This document shows positions 8,498-17,127 of a DNA stretch of 36,511 bases, one piece after another. The stretch is from NCBI GenBank assembly GCA_030431185.1, contig JAUIJO010000002.1, forward strand, positions 1 to 36,511. The letters run 5' to 3'. The translations under genes and the position numbers were made by a program. The notes beneath the pieces are model-generated. The model did no database searches and had not been told where the DNA came from. It worked only from the letters and a program-made list of their open reading frames with translations. Numbering within the stretch: position 1 is the stretch's first letter; each line of letters starts with the position of its first letter. The DNA comes from Gammaproteobacteria bacterium (GTDB lineage: Bacteria; Pseudomonadota; Gammaproteobacteria; Xanthomonadales; Xanthomonadaceae).

Positions 8498-11400
8498 ATG
8501 CCTCATGTTCCGGTCCGGGCGCCGAGGGTGCGCCGCGTCGCCATTCCATGCCTGCTGCTGGGCCTCGTGGCCACGCTGGCCACGGTCGCGTGGGCCCAGG
8601 AGGTGCCCGCCGACGCAACGACCTCCAGTACGGCGCCCCCCGATTCCGGTTTCCTGCTGCTGGGAGAACAGCGGCCATTCCAGGCCGAGGTGATCACGGA
8701 GCTGGTCCAGGATCGCGTGGGATTCCTATGGATCGGCACGCGCGAGGGCTTGTTCCAGTACGACGGCCAGCGGTTCCGCAAGTTCCAGCACGATGCGGGC
8801 GACGCCGACTCGATCTCCAGCAACGCCATCCGCGGCATGCTCGAGGACACGCGCGGCCGGCTCTGGGTGAACACGATATCCGGTGGCCTCAACCTGCTCG
8901 ACCGCGCCGGGTGGACCTTCCGCCATTTCAACCATGGTACCCAGCCCGGTGGCCTCAGCCACGACGGCGTGTTCGCATTGGCCGAAGCCGAGGACGGCAG
9001 GCTGTGGGTGGGCACCCAGTCCGGCCTCGACCTGTTGGATCCCGCCACGGGTCTCGCGGAACCCAGGGCGCTGCGCGGCAAGGGGGGCGAGTTCATCATG
9101 ACCCTGTTGCGCGACGCCGAGGGCCGCTTGTGGGTGGGCACGCTCGGCCAGGGACTGTTCCGCGCGACGGACGCGGGCGGATTCGAGGCGGTGCCCCTGG
9201 GCGAAGCAGGGGACACCGGACCCGCCGACATTTTCGGGCTGATGCAGGATGCCGGCGGCGTACTGTGGGTCGGTGCGCGCGACGGCCTCTACCGTGTGGC
9301 GCCCGGCCAGGCGCGCATGGCCGCCGCCGACCTGCTCCCCGTCGAGACTGGCGAGGAACTCGTCAATGTCACCACGCTCGTGCCGGACACGGACGGTGCG
9401 ATCTGGATCGGGACTTTCGGTACCGGGCTTTACCGGCTCGACCCGGCCACGTCCCGGATCGAAGCGGTAGGGCTGGGCCGAGCGGGCGCGGGTGCCCAGC
9501 ACGTGGACCAGGGGGCGATGCTGGTCGACCGCCAGGGCGGGCTGCTGGTCGGTACGTTCGGCGCTGGCCTGTTGCGGCGCCCGGCGCCCGTGCTGGACAT
9601 CCAGTCCTACCGGGCGGGCCAGGGCGAGGCCATGGGCCTCCGCGGTGAAGACGTCTACGCCGTGCTGGCCGATGGCGGGGACATGCGGTTCGGCAGCTTC
9701 GGCGGTGGCGTGCAGCGGTTGGTAGGCGCGACGGGAGAGGTGCAGTGGCTGGACGCCCCGGAAGCGGACGGCCGCCGCCTGGATGGCGTCGTCGCGCTGG
9801 CGCGTTCGCGCGACGGCAGCCTCTGGGTGGGGACCTCCGCGGGCCTGTACCGGCGACGGCCGGACGGTGGAACCACCACCTTCACCGCGCCTCCGGGCTC
9901 GCCGGGCGAGGCCAACCCCGGCTACGTCTACGCAATGCTCGAGGACCACGCCGGGCGCCTCTGGGTGGGCAGCGGCGGTTCCGGCCTCTACCGCTTCCGG
10001 CCCGGCGAGGAGGACTTCCTGATCTACCGGCCGGAGCCGGGGAACCCGCGCGCCCTGTCCGACGACTTCGTTTCGGCACTGATGGAGGACCGCCGCGGCC
10101 GCCTCTGGGTGGGGACGCGTTCGGGTGGGCTGAACCTGTGCACGGTGGCCGGCGACGCGCTGGACTGTGAACAACTGCCGCCGGGGCAGGGCGCCGGTGC
10201 GCCCAGCCACCACCATGTCGCCGACCTGCTGGAAGCACCGGACGGCGCGGTGTGGATCGGCACCGGGGGCGGCGGGCTCAACCGCGTCGACCTCGACGCG
10301 GACGGTCGCATCATCGGCGCCCGGATCTGGACGCGTGCCGACGGCCTGGTCGACGACAACGTGATGGCCCTGGCCCACGCGCCCGATGGCGCCCTCTGGA
10401 TCACCACGCGCGTGGGCTTGTCGCGGCTCGACCCGGACGGCCATTTCGACAACTACACCGTCGCCGATGGCCTGCCCACCTCGGTTTTCAATGCCAAGGC
10501 GGCCGATTGGCTGGACGGACGCCTCTACCTGGGCGGCACCCGCGGCGTGGTGTCCATCGACCCCGCGCGCTGGCAACGCCCCGGCCCGCCGCCGCCCACG
10601 GTGTTCACCTCGATCGAGGGCCTGGAGCGCGCGACGCCGTTGCCGGCACCTCCCTGGCAACTCGAATCGCTTCGGGTGGCATGGCGTCAGCCGTTTTCGC
10701 TGGGCTTCTCGGTGCTGTCCTTCGACGGGGGAGAGGCCGAGTACGAGTACCGCCTCGACGATGGCGAACCGTGGACGCCACTGGGCAACCGCAACCAGTT
10801 GACGCTGCATTCGCTTTCGCCGGGTCGTTACCGGGTCGGCATCCGCGGCAGGCACGCCGGTACCGGATGGACCGCCTCGGCGCCCTTGTCGATCGACATC
10901 GTCCCGCCCTGGTGGCGCAATGCCTGGCTGCAGGCAGCGGCGATCGTGCTTGCCTTCGCCCTGGTGTTGCTGGGGGCCGTCTGGCGGGTACGCGCCCTGC
11001 AGGCCCGCAATGCCGAGCTGCAGGCGCTGGAGCGGCAGAAGGACGTGGCCCTGCAAGCGTCGCGCGACAGCCAGGAACGCCTCGAGTCGGCGTTCGCGCG
11101 CCTGCGCCGACTGACCATGCAGCTGGAGGCGGCGAAGGAAGAGGAGCGCAAGCATATCGCGCGCGAGCTTCATGACGAGTTCGGCCAGGCGCTCACCGCC
11201 GCCAAGATCAACCTCCGCCTCGCGCTTGCGAATTCCGGCGCGGAGGCTGCCGAAGCGCGCATCGACGATACGCTGCACGTCATCGAGCGGCTGATCGTGC
11301 AGGTGCGCGCGCTGTCGCTGGACCTGCGTCCGCCCCTGCTGGACGAGCTGGGCCTGGTCCCGGCGTTGGAAGGCTACCTGGACGCGGTGGCGCAGCGCAG

Positions 11401-11779
11401 CGGAATGGCCATCGAACGCGACATCGACGTCGGCCTGCCGGCCATCGACGCCGAACGGGCCATCGCGGTGTTCCGGGTGGTCCAGGAAGCCCTGACCAAC
11501 GCGCTCCGCCACGCGGAAGCGGCCCACGTCCGGGTCGTGTTGAAGCACGAAGACGGTGCCATCGGCATCGAAGTGGCCGACGACGGGCGCGGGTTCGACG
11601 CCGAGGGGGCGATGGAAGGACGCGCGCACGGCTTCGGCCTGTTCGGCATGGGGGAGCGCATCAAGGATCTCGGCGGGCGCTTCGCACTCAATTCCCGCCC
11701 GGGGCGCGGTACCGTGATCCTTGCGACCGTCCCGCTGGCGAACGCGGCCCGACCCGGCCTGGAGGCAACAAGGACATGA
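8498..11779 (+). CDS. sensor histidine kinase with periplasmic two-component-regulator propeller repeats, Y_Y_Y domain and HisKA_3/HATPase core
   Basis: Signal peptide; many repeats of the form GxLWVGTxxGLxR; Y_Y_Y-like YEYRLDDGEPWTPLGNRNQLTLHSLSPGRYRVGIRGRH; TM segment AWLQAAAIVLAFALVLLGAVW; HisKA_3 box EEERKHIARELHDEFGQALTAAKINLRLAL; ATPase DDGRGFD...HGFGLFGMGERIKDLGG. Confidence 0.93.
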   Translation: MPHVPVRAPRVRRVAIPCLLLGLVATLATVAWAQEVPADATTSSTAPPDSGFLLLGEQRPFQAEVITELVQDRVGFLWIGTREGLFQYDGQRFRKFQHDAGDADSISSNAIRGMLEDTRGRLWVNTISGGLNLLDRAGWTFRHFNHGTQPGGLSHDGVFALAEAEDGRLWVGTQSGLDLLDPATGLAEPRALRGKGGEFIMTLLRDAEGRLWVGTLGQGLFRATDAGGFEAVPLGEAGDTGPADIFGLMQDAGGVLWVGARDGLYRVAPGQARMAAADLLPVETGEELVNVTTLVPDTDGAIWIGTFGTGLYRLDPATSRIEAVGLGRAGAGAQHVDQGAMLVDRQGGLLVGTFGAGLLRRPAPVLDIQSYRAGQGEAMGLRGEDVYAVLADGGDMRFGSFGGGVQRLVGATGEVQWLDAPEADGRRLDGVVALARSRDGSLWVGTSAGLYRRRPDGGTTTFTAPPGSPGEANPGYVYAMLEDHAGRLWVGSGGSGLYRFRPGEEDFLIYRPEPGNPRALSDDFVSALMEDRRGRLWVGTRSGGLNLCTVAGDALDCEQLPPGQGAGAPSHHHVADLLEAPDGAVWIGTGGGGLNRVDLDADGRIIGARIWTRADGLVDDNVMALAHAPDGALWITTRVGLSRLDPDGHFDNYTVADGLPTSVFNAKAADWLDGRLYLGGTRGVVSIDPARWQRPGPPPPTVFTSIEGLERATPLPAPPWQLESLRVAWRQPFSLGFSVLSFDGGEAEYEYRLDDGEPWTPLGNRNQLTLHSLSPGRYRVGIRGRHAGTGWTASAPLSIDIVPPWWRNAWLQAAAIVLAFALVLLGAVWRVRALQARNAELQALERQKDVALQASRDSQERLESAFARLRRLTMQLEAAKEEERKHIARELHDEFGQALTAAKINLRLALANSGAEAAEARIDDTLHVIERLIVQVRALSLDLRPPLLDELGLVPALEGYLDAVAQRSGMAIERDIDVGLPAIDAERAIAVFRVVQEALTNALRHAEAAHVRVVLKHEDGAIGIEVADDGRGFDAEGAMEGRAHGFGLFGMGERIKDLGGRFALNSRPGRGTVILATVPLANAARPGLEATRT

Positions 11780-12435
11780 ACATGCGCATCGTGATGGCCG
11801 ACGACCACCAGCTGGTGCGGGCGGGCCTCAGGTCCCTGCTCGAATCCTTCGGCGATGTCAGCGTCCTGGCCGAGTGCGGGGACGGCCACGAAGCCCTTGC
11901 GTTGACCGATCGCCACCAGCCCGACGTACTGCTGCTCGACATCAGCTTGCCGGGCCTCAACGGCCTGGAGGTCGCCGCGCGCGTGCCCAAGGCCAGTCCC
12001 CATACACGCGTGCTGGTGCTGTCCATGCACGCGGGCGCCGAGTACGTGGCCCAGGCCCTGCGCGCGGGCGTGGCCGGTTACCTGATCAAGGATTCGGCGG
12101 TCGACGAGTTGCGCGTCGCGCTCGATTCGATCCGGGCCGGCCGCCCCTACCTGAGCCCGGCGATCTCGCAGACCGTCCTGCATGGCTTCCTGCGCACGGG
12201 CGAAGGTCCTCCCGAGGCCGCGCAACTCGAGGTGCTGACGCCGCGCCAGCGCGAGATCCTGCAACTGGTGGCCGAAGGCCATGGCACGCGCGACATCGCC
12301 ACCCGGCTGGGGCTGAGCGTCAAGACGGTGGAAAGTCACCGGAGCCAGATCATGGACCGGCTGGACATCCATGACGTGCCGGGCCTCGTGCGCTTCGCGA
12401 TCCGCGTCGGCCTGGTCTCCGTCGATTCGCGTTGA
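11776..12435 (+). CDS. NarL/LuxR-family response regulator
   Basis: MRIVMADDHQLVRAGL...PDVLLLDISLPGLNGLEV...VLSMHAG...GYLIKDSA; C-terminal LTPRQREILQLVAEGHGTRDIATRLGLSVKTVESHRSQIMDRLDIHD; ATGA overlap with the kinase gene. Confidence 0.95.
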   Translation: MNMRIVMADDHQLVRAGLRSLLESFGDVSVLAECGDGHEALALTDRHQPDVLLLDISLPGLNGLEVAARVPKASPHTRVLVLSMHAGAEYVAQALRAGVAGYLIKDSAVDELRVALDSIRAGRPYLSPAISQTVLHGFLRTGEGPPEAAQLEVLTPRQREILQLVAEGHGTRDIATRLGLSVKTVESHRSQIMDRLDIHDVPGLVRFAIRVGLVSVDSR

Positions 12436-12491: not shown

Positions 12492-12529
12492 TAGGGGAAT
12501 GCCCTAGCCGGGCCTCGGGCGTCTCCCGA
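12492..12529 (+). promoter_or_regulatory. candidate operator pair A: TAGGGGAATGCCCTA (12492-12506) and TCGGGCGTCTCCCGA (12515-12529)
   Basis: Two 15-bp 7-1-7 inverted repeats, each with one mismatch, centres 23 bp apart, upstream of the 12618 gene. The same arrangement occurs at 15875-15912. Confidence 0.6.
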
Positions 12530-12553: not shown

Positions 12554-12559
12554 TAGGGT
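12554..12559 (+). promoter_or_regulatory. candidate -10 hexamer (TAGGGT) of the secreted-protein operon
   Basis: Starts 32 bp after the centre of the proximal palindrome, the same offset as TATCGT at 15937-15942. Confidence 0.35.
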
Positions 12560-12617
12560 GGAACCGTCGTTACAGGGGGCGGCATCCACCACCATCCATC
12601 TCCGGGGGAGAACCCAA

Positions 12618-13253
12618 ATGAGATCCTTGTTCGTCCTGCGTCGAGCGGCCGTCATGGCCATGTTCGCGCTGTCCCTTGGCCTGTTGGCCACCACCGCGCA
12701 GGCCACCAAGCTGCGCAAGCAAAACCTCACCGAACTCATCGCTGGCTCGGAGAGCATCGTGTCCGGGACGGTCAAGTCCGTCAGCGATGGCATCGACGCG
12801 AAAGGCGTGCCCTACACCGAGGTCACCCTCTCGATCGGGCGCTCGCCCAAGGGCGCGATCGAGGCCGGAAAGGAGTACACGTTCCGCCAGTTCGGGCTGC
12901 TCGAACCGCGCACCTTTCCCAATGGCCACCAGTTGCTGGCGCGCGCCCCGGAGGGCTTCCCCACCTGGCACGAAGGCGAGTACGTGGTCGCCTTCCTCAA
13001 CCGTCCCGCGTCGCGCACGGGCCTGCAGACCACGGTCGGCCTCGCCCAGGGCAAGCTCGTCCAGGTCAATGACCGCCTCGCGAACGACTTCGGCAACGAC
13101 GGCCTGTTCGACGGCGTGCAGGTCAGCGCCGGCCTCCTGTCGGCCGACGAGAACGCGCTGATCAATGGCAGCCCCGTGGATACCGCGGTGTTCCTCGGCC
13201 TGATCGACCGTATCGTCGAGCAGCAGTGGATCGAAAAGGGGGAGATGAAGTGA
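12618..13253 (+). CDS. secreted protein of unknown function, partner of the downstream metalloprotease
   Basis: Signal peptide AAVMAMFALSLGLLATTAQA; LTELIAGSESIVSGTVKSVSDGIDAKGVPYTEVTLSIGRSPKG..., WHEGEYVVAFL; gggggag RBS; stop codon overlaps the next start (TGATG). Confidence 0.82.
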   Translation: MRSLFVLRRAAVMAMFALSLGLLATTAQATKLRKQNLTELIAGSESIVSGTVKSVSDGIDAKGVPYTEVTLSIGRSPKGAIEAGKEYTFRQFGLLEPRTFPNGHQLLARAPEGFPTWHEGEYVVAFLNRPASRTGLQTTVGLAQGKLVQVNDRLANDFGNDGLFDGVQVSAGLLSADENALINGSPVDTAVFLGLIDRIVEQQWIEKGEMK

Positions 13254-15712
13254 TGACGACCGCACGCACGCGCAGCACGCGCCTCTTCCTCACCCTGGGC
13301 CTCATCCTTTCCGCCGGCGCGACGCAGGCCGCTGGACCGCTCTATCTGTCCTCCGATTCCGGCGAGCTGAAGCCGCTGGCCTGGGACATGAGCGACGGCC
13401 CGATCCCGGTATACACCGACGGCGGTGAGGCCTTCACCTTCGATTTCGACGGCGTCACGCCCTTTATCACCATCGAGCGCGCGAACGAGATCACCGCCTT
13501 CGCGTTCGAGCAGTGGAGCCAGGTGCCGACCTCGACGTTCGAGGCCGCGATCGCCGGCACCATCGAGTCGCAGATCGGCATCGCCGACATCACCGGCGCC
13601 AACGCCGACGCGGTCTACAGCGTCGAGAACGGCCGCGGCTTCTGGGTGCTCTACGACACCGACGGGAGCATCCTGCAGGACTACTTCGGCGTCAGCCGCG
13701 ACTCGGTCCTCGGCATCGCCTTCCCCGAGTGGTCGGACGGCAATGGCCACATCACCGAGGCGACCGCGGTCATGAACGGCTGGGGCGTGCACGTCGACGA
13801 CCCGCAGGGCAACGCCTTCGCAGGTGTGTTCAGCCACGAGTTCGGGCACGCGATCAACCTGTCCCACTCGCAGGTCAACGGCCCGATGGCCTACCAGAGC
13901 TACACGTACGCGCCCAAGTATCCAGGCGTGAAGGGCTGCGTCGCTCCATACCACCGCTACGACTACCCGGCGTCGATCGCGGAAGCCAATCCGATCGACG
14001 TGACCAGTCTGGAGACGATGTTCCCCTTCATCGATTCCCGCGCCGGCGGCGGCGTGGCGCAGTCGACCGTCGACATGCCCGACGACATCGCCGGCATCTC
14101 CAACCTGTATCCCAGCGCGACCTATGCCAGCACCACCGGCTCGATCTCGGGCGTCCTCCGGCTCAAGGATGGCATGACCGAGTACAGCGGCATCAACGTG
14201 ATCGCCCGCAACGTCGACGATCCGCTCTTCGACGCGGTGTCCGCGATGACCGGCGACCAGACCCAGGGCGAACTGGGGCCCGATGGTCGCTTCACGATCC
14301 ACAACCTGACGCCGGGCCAGCGTTACGTCGTGTACATCGAGCCGATCAGCTCGGGCGGCTATCCGACCACGCCCCAGGCGCTGGTCTCGGAGGGCGAGTA
14401 CTGGAATGTGTCCGAGGGCAGCGACCCGGCGACGGACGCGGGCTGCGACGCCACCCCGATTCTGGCCGAGGCCGGTGTCACCACGAATGCCGACATCACC
14501 TTCAACGGGTACGCCAAGGGCGTGCAGTTCACGCCGATCGTCCAGGCGCACCTGCTCGAGGTCTCCAAGAGCGGCAAGCGCGCGTCGGGCATGGTCGGTG
14601 ACGTCGGTTTCGTCTGGGACCGCACCAAGGGCTTCCAGTTGCTGCCCGAGGGCGTGGGGGCCAGCAACGGCGCGCTCGACCGCAATGGTGGGCAGATGCT
14701 CGGGAGCGCGGACGTCAATGGCAACGGCATCAACGAGCCGGTGATCGTGTCGCTGGCGTCGGGCCGTTTGCAGCCCTTGGGCGACCTTAACGGCAACACC
14801 TGCGGTGGTAGCAATTCGGGTGGCGTCAACGCCGCGACGGGCTGGTCGCTGGACGATGCGGCCCGCACCATGGTCGGTACCGGTTATGTCGACCGGAATG
14901 GCAACGGCAGCTGCAACCAGTCCTACCAGAACGAGATCGTCCCGGTGGTCTGGGATGCCAAGGGCGGCATGCGCGAGCTGCATACCTGGTTCGATTCCCT
15001 GCCGCAGTGGACGCGCGCGACCGGCATCTCCGGCAACGGCCGCGTCGTCGTCGGCAGCGCCGGCGCGCAGGACGCACTCGCCTGGATCGACGAGGGGCAG
15101 ATGATCAACCTCGGCGACATCACCGGGGCCCGCGACCTCTATGCGGTGAACTACGACGGTACCCGCGTGCCGATGTCCACTGAGCAGGGCGTGCTGCTCT
15201 GGAACGCCATGAAGGGCACGGGTGCGGAGGCCTTCACCAACATCGGCGGCCTGCGCTATTGCCGCGATGTGCCCATGGTCCAGTTGGGTCGCGACCTCTG
15301 TGCACTGTATGGCGAGGACGTCGTCAACGAGGCGCTGGGCGCGCCCATCCTGTCGATCTCCAGTACCACAGACAAGGGCGACATCGTCCTGGGTCGCGCC
15401 GGCTCGCTGTTCACGGGCTTCGTCGGCGCGATCTGGATCGAGCACGTGGGTTGGATGACCATGGTCGACTTCCTGCACAAGCAGGGCGTCGTCGAGGCCA
15501 CCGACATCCCGTATGACAACCCGATCGGCATCAGCGCATCGGGCAGCGAGATCGTGGGTGGCCTGGCCGGTGCGACGATGTCCTGGCTGATCGAGGCCGA
15601 CCAGGTCTATGTCTGCCAGGACGGCCAGTCGGTCCTGACCGGTTTCCCCAACGGACTTCAGGCCAAGGTCCAGGCGGGTGCAAGGTTCGGTCGCTGCGAG
15701 TTCCTCGACTGA
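13253..15712 (+). CDS. secreted metzincin-like zinc metalloprotease with beta-sandwich and HAF-like repeat C-terminus
   Basis: Signal peptide; HEFGHAINLSH (HExxHxxxxxH); possible Met-turn DVTSLETMFPFIDS; carboxypeptidase-regulatory-like segment SISGVLRLKDGMTEYSGINVIARN...GRFTIHNLTPGQRYVVYIEP; repeated GxSxxGxxVVGSAGAQDALAWxxG type segments. Confidence 0.83.
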   Translation: MTTARTRSTRLFLTLGLILSAGATQAAGPLYLSSDSGELKPLAWDMSDGPIPVYTDGGEAFTFDFDGVTPFITIERANEITAFAFEQWSQVPTSTFEAAIAGTIESQIGIADITGANADAVYSVENGRGFWVLYDTDGSILQDYFGVSRDSVLGIAFPEWSDGNGHITEATAVMNGWGVHVDDPQGNAFAGVFSHEFGHAINLSHSQVNGPMAYQSYTYAPKYPGVKGCVAPYHRYDYPASIAEANPIDVTSLETMFPFIDSRAGGGVAQSTVDMPDDIAGISNLYPSATYASTTGSISGVLRLKDGMTEYSGINVIARNVDDPLFDAVSAMTGDQTQGELGPDGRFTIHNLTPGQRYVVYIEPISSGGYPTTPQALVSEGEYWNVSEGSDPATDAGCDATPILAEAGVTTNADITFNGYAKGVQFTPIVQAHLLEVSKSGKRASGMVGDVGFVWDRTKGFQLLPEGVGASNGALDRNGGQMLGSADVNGNGINEPVIVSLASGRLQPLGDLNGNTCGGSNSGGVNAATGWSLDDAARTMVGTGYVDRNGNGSCNQSYQNEIVPVVWDAKGGMRELHTWFDSLPQWTRATGISGNGRVVVGSAGAQDALAWIDEGQMINLGDITGARDLYAVNYDGTRVPMSTEQGVLLWNAMKGTGAEAFTNIGGLRYCRDVPMVQLGRDLCALYGEDVVNEALGAPILSISSTTDKGDIVLGRAGSLFTGFVGAIWIEHVGWMTMVDFLHKQGVVEATDIPYDNPIGISASGSEIVGGLAGATMSWLIEADQVYVCQDGQSVLTGFPNGLQAKVQAGARFGRCEFLD

Positions 15713-15874
15713 ACCCACTGCCAGTGCGCGTGACGTTGGAGGGGCGGGTCTTCGGACCTGCCCCTCTGCCCATTCCGGATGGATGCTGTCCGCCCGGGAC
15801 CGACGCGGGCATTGGGGCAGCGGCGTGCCAGCCAGGCCTTGGGGGTGGCGGTCGACCCTGAACCCCCGGTGTCA

Positions 15875-15912
15875 TAGGGGAATCCCCTAGAGGCGTATCG
15901 GGGAATCCCTGA
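15875..15912 (+). promoter_or_regulatory. candidate operator pair B: TAGGGGAATCCCCTA (15875-15889) and TCGGGGAATCCCTGA (15898-15912)
   Basis: First is a perfect 7-1-7 palindrome, second has one mismatch; centres 23 bp apart, exactly as in pair A. Confidence 0.65.
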
Positions 15913-15936
15913 TGCCGTACGCCGGCCGCAGGCGCG

Positions 15937-15942
15937 TATCGT
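15937..15942 (+). promoter_or_regulatory. candidate -10 hexamer (TATCGT) of the putative sRNA promoter
   Basis: Begins 32 bp after the centre of the proximal palindrome, as in copy A. Confidence 0.35.
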
Positions 15943-15948
15943 GCAACA

Positions 15949-16076
15949 CACAGCGCGCGGAACGGTTCGGCGCGGCGGGTGACCCGAAGAACCCGCCGCC
16001 CCTGCATGGCACCTCTTTGGTGGAACGCGGTTTCCGGCGCGCTCGAAAGGCGGGGGTTTCCCCGCCTTTCTTGTGT
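15949..16076 (+). ncRNA. putative structured small RNA of about 128 nt ending at an intrinsic terminator
   Basis: Lies between candidate promoter B and the terminator. Long-range stem AGCGCGCGGAA (15952-15962)/TTCCGGCGCGCT (16032-16043, one bulged G); 9-bp hairpin GCGGCGGGT(15972-15980)/ACCCGCCGC(15991-15999); hairpin CACC-TCTTT-GGTG (16010-16022); no credible ORF inside. Confidence 0.55.
16045..16076 (+). terminator. intrinsic terminator
   Basis: Perfect 11-bp stem GAAAGGCGGGG (16045-16055)/CCCCGCCTTTC (16060-16070), 4-nt loop GTTT, followed by TTGTGT. Confidence 0.8.
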
Positions 16077-16108: not shown

Positions 16109-16612
16109 TCAGCCGTCGTAGGCCACGTCCACGATCGTGAAGCGCGTCGGCCCGGCAGGCAGCTCGGCCACGAATCCGTCGTCGACACGCTTCTTCAGCA
16201 TGGCCCGCGCAAGCGGCGAATCGATGCTGATCCAGCCCCTTGGCGCATCGGTCTCGTCGGGCCCCACGATGCGGTAGGCCTTGCACTCGCCGGTATCCAC
16301 GCGCTCGACCTCCACCCGTGCGCCGAAGAACACCGCCCCTGGATCGGACGGCAGGCCGTCGACGACCTTCAGCGCGGGCACGCGCTTGCTGAGGTATCGC
16401 ACGCGCCGGTCGATCTCGCCGAGCTGTTTCTTGCGATAGGTGTATTCGGCATTCTCGGACCGGTCGCCTTCCGCGGCGGCGGCGGCCAGCGCCTGCACCA
16501 CTTCCGGGCGTTTGACGCGCCACAATTCGTCGAGCTCGCGCTTCAGGCGATCATGGCCGCCGCGGGTGATCAGCGGCGTGCTCTTCTCGGGTGGCGGACG
16601 CCAGCGGCCCAT
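16109..16612 (-). CDS. greB: transcription elongation factor GreB
   Basis: [65 protein letters not shown]... and [38 protein letters not shown]. Confidence 0.95.
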
Positions 16613-16623
16613 GGTGCGAGGCC

Positions 16624-17127
16624 TCAGTCCAGGTCGGCGGTGCGGACCAGGCCCTGGCCGGTTTCGCTCGCGACCGGCTGGCCCTCGCTGTCGAGCAGGG
16701 CGAGCGACTGCGGTGGCTGCCACTGGAACAGGCGGTCCTGGGCATCCTTGGCATTCGGGTCGAGCCGCAGGAGGCTGCCTTCCACGCTCCAGCTGCCGTC
16801 CAGCTCGAAGCGCGTGCCGGCTTCGTCCGCGTAATGTTCGGCGAGGTCGAAGCTTCCGTCGGGGCGGAGTTCAAGCACCGTGTCGATGCCGGGGCAGCTG
16901 GCGCAGGGCAGGACGCCCTCGAAGCGACCGGCCAGGGCCTTGGTGTCGACATCGGAGGCGGGGGTTGCGTCCGCGGGCGTCACCTCGTGCAGGACCGCGG
17001 TCGCCGGGCTGGCCTCATCGGCGGGGGACGGGGATTCGGCGCCTGTAGTGTCCGCGCCTTGCCGGCAGGCGGACAGGGCCAGGCAGAGCACGGCGAGGGC
17101 GGGCAGGGTACGGTGCGAGAGGGACAT
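16624..17127 (-). CDS. NlpE-like (copper resistance/envelope stress) lipoprotein
   Basis: Lipobox [63 protein letters not shown] matches the NlpE N-terminal domain. Confidence 0.85.

Follow-up and report, generated by a model that had tools for sequence, protein, structure and literature searches.

The question raised by this locus is what is controlled by a pair of palindromes (copy B) that lies behind a protease operon and shares its layout with a second pair (copy A) in front of that operon. The 36,511 nucleotides analyzed (the window) belong to a draft genome of 2.96 Mb in 355 contigs, and the genus relatives of this genome include Lysobacter (now Marilutibacter) aestuarii, spongiae, and penaei. 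The gene order in the window is rimO, kinase, regulator, copy A, P1, M10-like protease, copy B, a predicted RNA, and the convergent greB (Table 1). No protein gene starts on the forward strand downstream of copy B, where the next gene is greB. We consider it likely that copy B is an activator-dependent promoter of a small RNA, driven by the adjacent kinase and regulator and belonging to one regulon with the protease operon behind copy A.

Table 1. Features of the locus, with positions in the window
Feature	Position	Strand	Description
Sensor histidine kinase	8498..11779	+	Pfam: Reg_prop propeller, HisKA_3, and HATPase domains
NarL/LuxR-type response regulator	11776..12435	+	Pfam Response_reg and GerE; proposed binder of both operator pairs
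Operator A1	12492..12506	+	TAGGGGAATGCCCTA, 6/7 arm pairs
Operator A2	12515..12529	+	TCGGGCGTCTCCCGA, 6/7 arm pairs
-10-like hexamer, copy A	12554..12559	+	TAGGGT, 32 bp past second centre
P1	12618..13253	+	Unknown family; first gene after copy A; hydrophobic N-terminus ending ..ATTAQA
M10-like (matrixin) metalloprotease	13253..15712	+	Pfam PF00413, 30.9 bits versus cut-off of 24
Operator B1	15875..15889	+	TAGGGGAATCCCCTA, 7/7 arm pairs, centre 15882, about -67
Operator B2	15898..15912	+	TCGGGGAATCCCTGA, 6/7 arm pairs, centre 15905, about -44
-10-like hexamer, copy B	15937..15942	+	TATCGT, 32 bp past B2 centre
Predicted small structured RNA	about 15949..16072	+	About 125 nt; start placed from the -10, end from the terminator
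Intrinsic terminator	16045..16070	+	GAAAGGCGGGG-GTTT-CCCCGCCTTTC then TTGTGT; 11-bp GC-rich stem
greB	16109..16723	-	Convergent; Pfam; adjoins the small RNA in all four species (tblastn)

The initial annotation had described twin palindromes in copy B, a spacing of 23 bp between their centres, and a -10-like hexamer farther on, whose distance from centre 2 matches that of copy A. Direct reading of the sequence confirmed each of these points, and the A1-A2 spacing is likewise 23 bp. Among the 7-1-7 twins of this spacing in the window, copy B scores best. When the window was simulated 200 times with a Markov model, 7 of the simulations contained an equally good twin, which gives some room to the explanation that the palindromes arose by chance in intergenic DNA of an ordinary kind; palindromy by itself is modest evidence and not conclusive. 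The comparison between species was decisive where the palindrome statistics were insufficient. The B1 sequence is unchanged in L. aestuarii and L. spongiae, B2 carries a single substitution in each of them, and A1 has counterparts in L. aestuarii and in genomes G065, G101, and G130. Between species, copy B differs at 0 to 1 of its 30 operator bases and at 9 to 12 of the 32 adjacent spacer and promoter bases (Fisher P values of 0.001 to 0.006); between L. spongiae and L. aestuarii, 0 of 30 operator bases and 9 of 32 adjacent bases had changed (P = 0.002). The sequences that flank copy A show no relation to those that flank copy B. The confinement of substitutions to the spacers and the unrelated flanks support the earlier proposal of retained function over recent duplication. 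Chance, which is refuted by the conservation of both the sites and the RNA across species, retains next to no probability, and on this comparative evidence the paired palindromes are a real conserved switch.

Motif scans gave a matching picture. Within its own genome, the twin pattern at 0 to 1 mismatch occurred at copies A and B only. In seven genomes of the genus, the first-site motif TAGGGGAATNCCCTA (at most 1 mismatch) was found only at A and B promoters, and its reversed control pattern had 0 matches. The consensus twin matched 10 times in 397 family genomes and its reversed control 0 times; this count is not an independent test, since the consensus was drawn from approximately the first seven of the 10 sites, and the informative part of the scan is the zero for the control together with the lack of stray matches. 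Eight of the 10 matches were A- or B-type promoters: four of copy A (window species, L. aestuarii, G065, and G101), the promoter of a second P1'/M10' pair in G101, and three of copy B, each from a different species. The remaining matches were one other promoter in two close genomes (G023 and G120). When offsets of +20 to +44 past the second centre were examined in 9 promoters, TA...T was present in 8 of them at +31 or +32 and nowhere else in this range; its base rate per position is 0.0009. At the distance expected of a -35, copy B has no such hexamer, the best match being 2 of 6 bases. A -10 at a fixed place and no -35 together suggest the geometry of a promoter whose activator occupies sites at about -44 and -67.

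The most obvious candidate for this activator is encoded next to copy A. The regulator contains both a receiver domain and a GerE helix-turn-helix, as do members of the NarL/LuxR-type class. Besides L. aestuarii, three other genera have full-length homologues of the kinase. Four genera (that of the window, with L. aestuarii, and those of G065, G101, and G130) keep the genes for the kinase, the regulator, P1, and M10 together, with copy A lying between the regulator and P1 each time. Where copy A is present, the regulator is 84 to 96% identical to that of the window, with a nearly invariant recognition helix, and the kinase is 52 to 85% identical. As far as sequence comparison can do so, this ties the motif to the adjacent regulator, which we therefore propose as its binder. 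P1, which had no Pfam or NCBIfam match, is probably exported, judging from its N-terminus, and the M10-like protease is probably secreted. In four other genomes, an M10-like protein 67 to 92% identical to it lies downstream of P1. Its zinc motif, HEFGHAINLSH (window positions 13835-13867), retains the three His and the Glu of HExxHxxGxxH and has Asn in place of Gly, and its Pfam score is just above the cut-off.

We then considered what is transcribed from copy B. The initial annotation had pointed to a non-coding transcript, and this was supported by a conserved RNA with compensatory changes, its own predicted and conserved terminator, and no credible reading frame. The predicted fold of 126 bases from the expected start was much better than those of shuffles (z score of -3.7); without the terminator the z score became -2.25, which is only mildly better than shuffles. 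In the four-species alignment, compensatory changes that kept pairing were found at 4 pairs, a limited covariation given that only four sequences carry the RNA. The terminator is kept in all four species, its closing pair having changed from GC to AU in L. penaei. A covariance model that had been trained on three of the species matched the fourth, L. penaei, between rimO and greB with 75.6 bits (E value of 8e-10). In the 397 genomes, this model found nothing beyond the four species at an E value of 0.001 or less, and in other genera it gave only weak matches (E values of 0.03 to 1), far below the four true members. A pattern scan of the genome contigs found the RNA in L. penaei, L. aestuarii, and L. 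spongiae only, plus two near-identical matches that were rejected as chance, their surroundings looking protein coding. Rfam gave no match at gathering or relaxed thresholds and no family above its cut-off, and the small RNA looks previously undescribed.

The transcript might instead encode a small protein, for example from the ATG at 16006 (MAPLWW...), given that this ATG is at the same place in all four species and that its frame is open to the terminator. However, it is preceded by no Shine-Dalgarno sequence, the substitutions between species alter residues (L/R, W/R, and N/D), L. penaei has an additional base that puts the frame out of register a few codons in, and the open stretch passes through the terminator stem. 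The reading frames are thus not conserved, and we rejected this explanation as very unlikely. For the non-coding RNA, action in trans on mRNAs is our working proposal. Base pairing of the RNA with the P1, M10, kinase, regulator, and greB leaders was no better than with shuffles. Sites complementary to its conserved loop (TCTTCGGGTC) were rarer than those of the reversed control, and those that were shared fell in long conserved stretches and not at clear gene starts.

The co-occurrence of the RNA and operators with the regulator is mixed across species. All three are found together in the genomes of the window species and L. aestuarii. In the latter, the contig with the kinase operon and the contig with the RNA overlap exactly over 76 bases at their ends, so the order is probably rimO, kinase operon, mgtC-like gene, RNA, greB. 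The order in L. spongiae is rimO, mgtC-like gene, RNA, greB, and the kinase operon is absent: none of the genes for the kinase, the regulator, P1, and M10 was found in this species, and the copy B operators are nonetheless kept. In L. penaei the order is rimO, RNA, greB, with neither the operator nor the kinase operon, which suggests that the RNA does not need the adjacent regulator everywhere. Upstream of its RNA, L. penaei (L023) has retained the outer flank GGTGTCAT as well as a -10 (TATCAT); the operator stretch is approximately 23 bp shorter and contains no such palindrome. Because the RNA is present in species without the switch or the sensor, it outlives the switch. These species form a natural series, from all parts, to the operator without the sensor, to the RNA without either, from which it could be learned how an RNA gene gains or loses sensor control.

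The retention of the operators in L. spongiae is the main point against a simple one-regulator reading. It would follow either from recent loss of the operon or from another protein using the sites. On the second of these possibilities, the copy B promoter is bound, alone or additionally, by a different regulator of the same DNA preference, while the adjacent regulator mainly serves copy A. The unchanged L. spongiae operators in a genome without the adjacent regulator are what this explanation accounts for, but no other LuxR-type response regulator detected in that species shares the recognition helix, the retention would also be explained if the operon had been lost cleanly, and perhaps recently, from its place between rimO and the mgtC-like gene, and the motif otherwise occurs only where the adjacent regulator does, plus in one unrelated lineage. 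We regard a different regulator as unlikely, though worth keeping in mind. A further explanation is that the operators chiefly control the opposite strand, with the RNA being incidental. In L. aestuarii and L. spongiae, the twin lies approximately 90 bp upstream of a divergent mgtC/DUF4010-like gene. This gene is absent from this place in the window, where the operators, the -10, and the RNA are all kept, and the fixed -10 is on the RNA side, leaving control of the opposite strand only a slim chance.

The reading that we prefer, activation of the copy B promoter by the adjacent regulator, would proceed as follows. The Reg_prop kinase would phosphorylate the LuxR/NarL-type regulator, and two dimers of the regulator would bind the copy B palindromes, which are centred at about -67 and -44 with the -10 at a fixed distance, as expected of the activator sites of a small RNA activated by a two-component system. 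Since the promoter has no usable -35, RNA polymerase would be recruited by the adjoining dimer (class II geometry) and would start from TATCGT at approximately 15949. The transcript is predicted to fold into a closed multibranched structure and to stop at the terminator, with its exact ends set by these predictions. The same regulator would drive the P1/M10 protease operon from copy A, so that the kinase signal, the secreted protease, and the small RNA would form one local regulon, with the RNA perhaps acting in trans.

Small RNAs that are controlled by sensors are a known kind. GacS/GacA is a two-component system of the same regulator class that activates the intergenic structured RNAs rsmX/Y/Z. 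The operator described here differs from the GacA box, and, unlike rsmX/Y/Z, the RNA has no GGA motifs in its conserved hairpin loops. The prediction leaves GACCCGAAGA-like and UCUUU/UCGUC loops unpaired and places GGA in stems, so a role as a CsrA/RsmA-sequestering RNA was not supported. The Rfam model for PrrB/RsmZ reached only 17.1 bits, on the opposite strand, versus a cut-off of 44. Another such RNA is PaiI of Pseudomonas aeruginosa, a NarL-controlled small RNA of 126 nt (PMC8139620), which similarly has a site for a NarL/LuxR-type regulator in the promoter of an RNA of approximately 125 nt; for the window RNA, binding by the regulator is a prediction. The two differ in that the sites here are 7-1-7 GGGGA-type twins and not the NarL heptamer, in their sensors and RNAs, and in the position of the RNA gene beside the sensor operon. 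In the same bacterial order, sX13 of Xanthomonas is a regulatory small RNA (PMC3771888), and the window RNA matches no Rfam family, the sequence relation between the two having been compared via Rfam only. Other Reg_prop/HisKA_3 kinases with LuxR-type regulators have the same domain makeup as the window pair, but the latter is coupled to the P1/M10-like pair, to which Marilutibacter adds an RNA gene. No known equivalog was found in NCBIfam, the best being MctR with 176.8 of 300 bits, and no paper on the operator sequence was found among those searched. Both the RNA and its wiring look new. On balance we lean toward a new small regulatory RNA family in part of Marilutibacter (Lysobacteraceae), wired by a propeller-sensor kinase to the twin-operator switch of a protease, to which it would add a posttranscriptional arm, and evolutionarily independent of that switch, because it is still found where the switch or the sensor has been lost. 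An undescribed two-component system would thereby gain a concrete regulon of two promoters, a predicted DNA motif, and a promoter geometry, and a family absent from Rfam would be added.

Several further observations were made on the operators and the operon. The consensus-twin match in G023 (L080) and G120 (L081), which has one mismatch, lies between a LuxR-type regulator gene of a flagellar cluster, whose product is approximately 41% identical, and an rpoN-like gene; it has no -10 at the usual distance and is probably unrelated. In G101, a second P1'/M10'-like pair follows the first (L017, G101:C2, reverse strand, approximately 2.3 to 2.5 kb from the low end), with an M10 part approximately 40% identical and the twin operator TAAGGGATTCCCCGA-N8-CCGGGTACTGCCCGA. 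The leader of the P1 mRNA just past the predicted start (12566-12620), ACAGGGGGCGRCA..., is unusually conserved across genera (also L016, L017, L018, and L019). This conservation appears to exceed the needs of a plain untranslated leader, and an RNA element is possible there. After the M10 gene, a stem-loop at 15739-15766, GAGGGGCGGGTC-TTCG-GACCTGCCCCTC, is present without a T run; its counterpart in L. aestuarii carries one, and the stem-loop is therefore probably the terminator of the protease operon.
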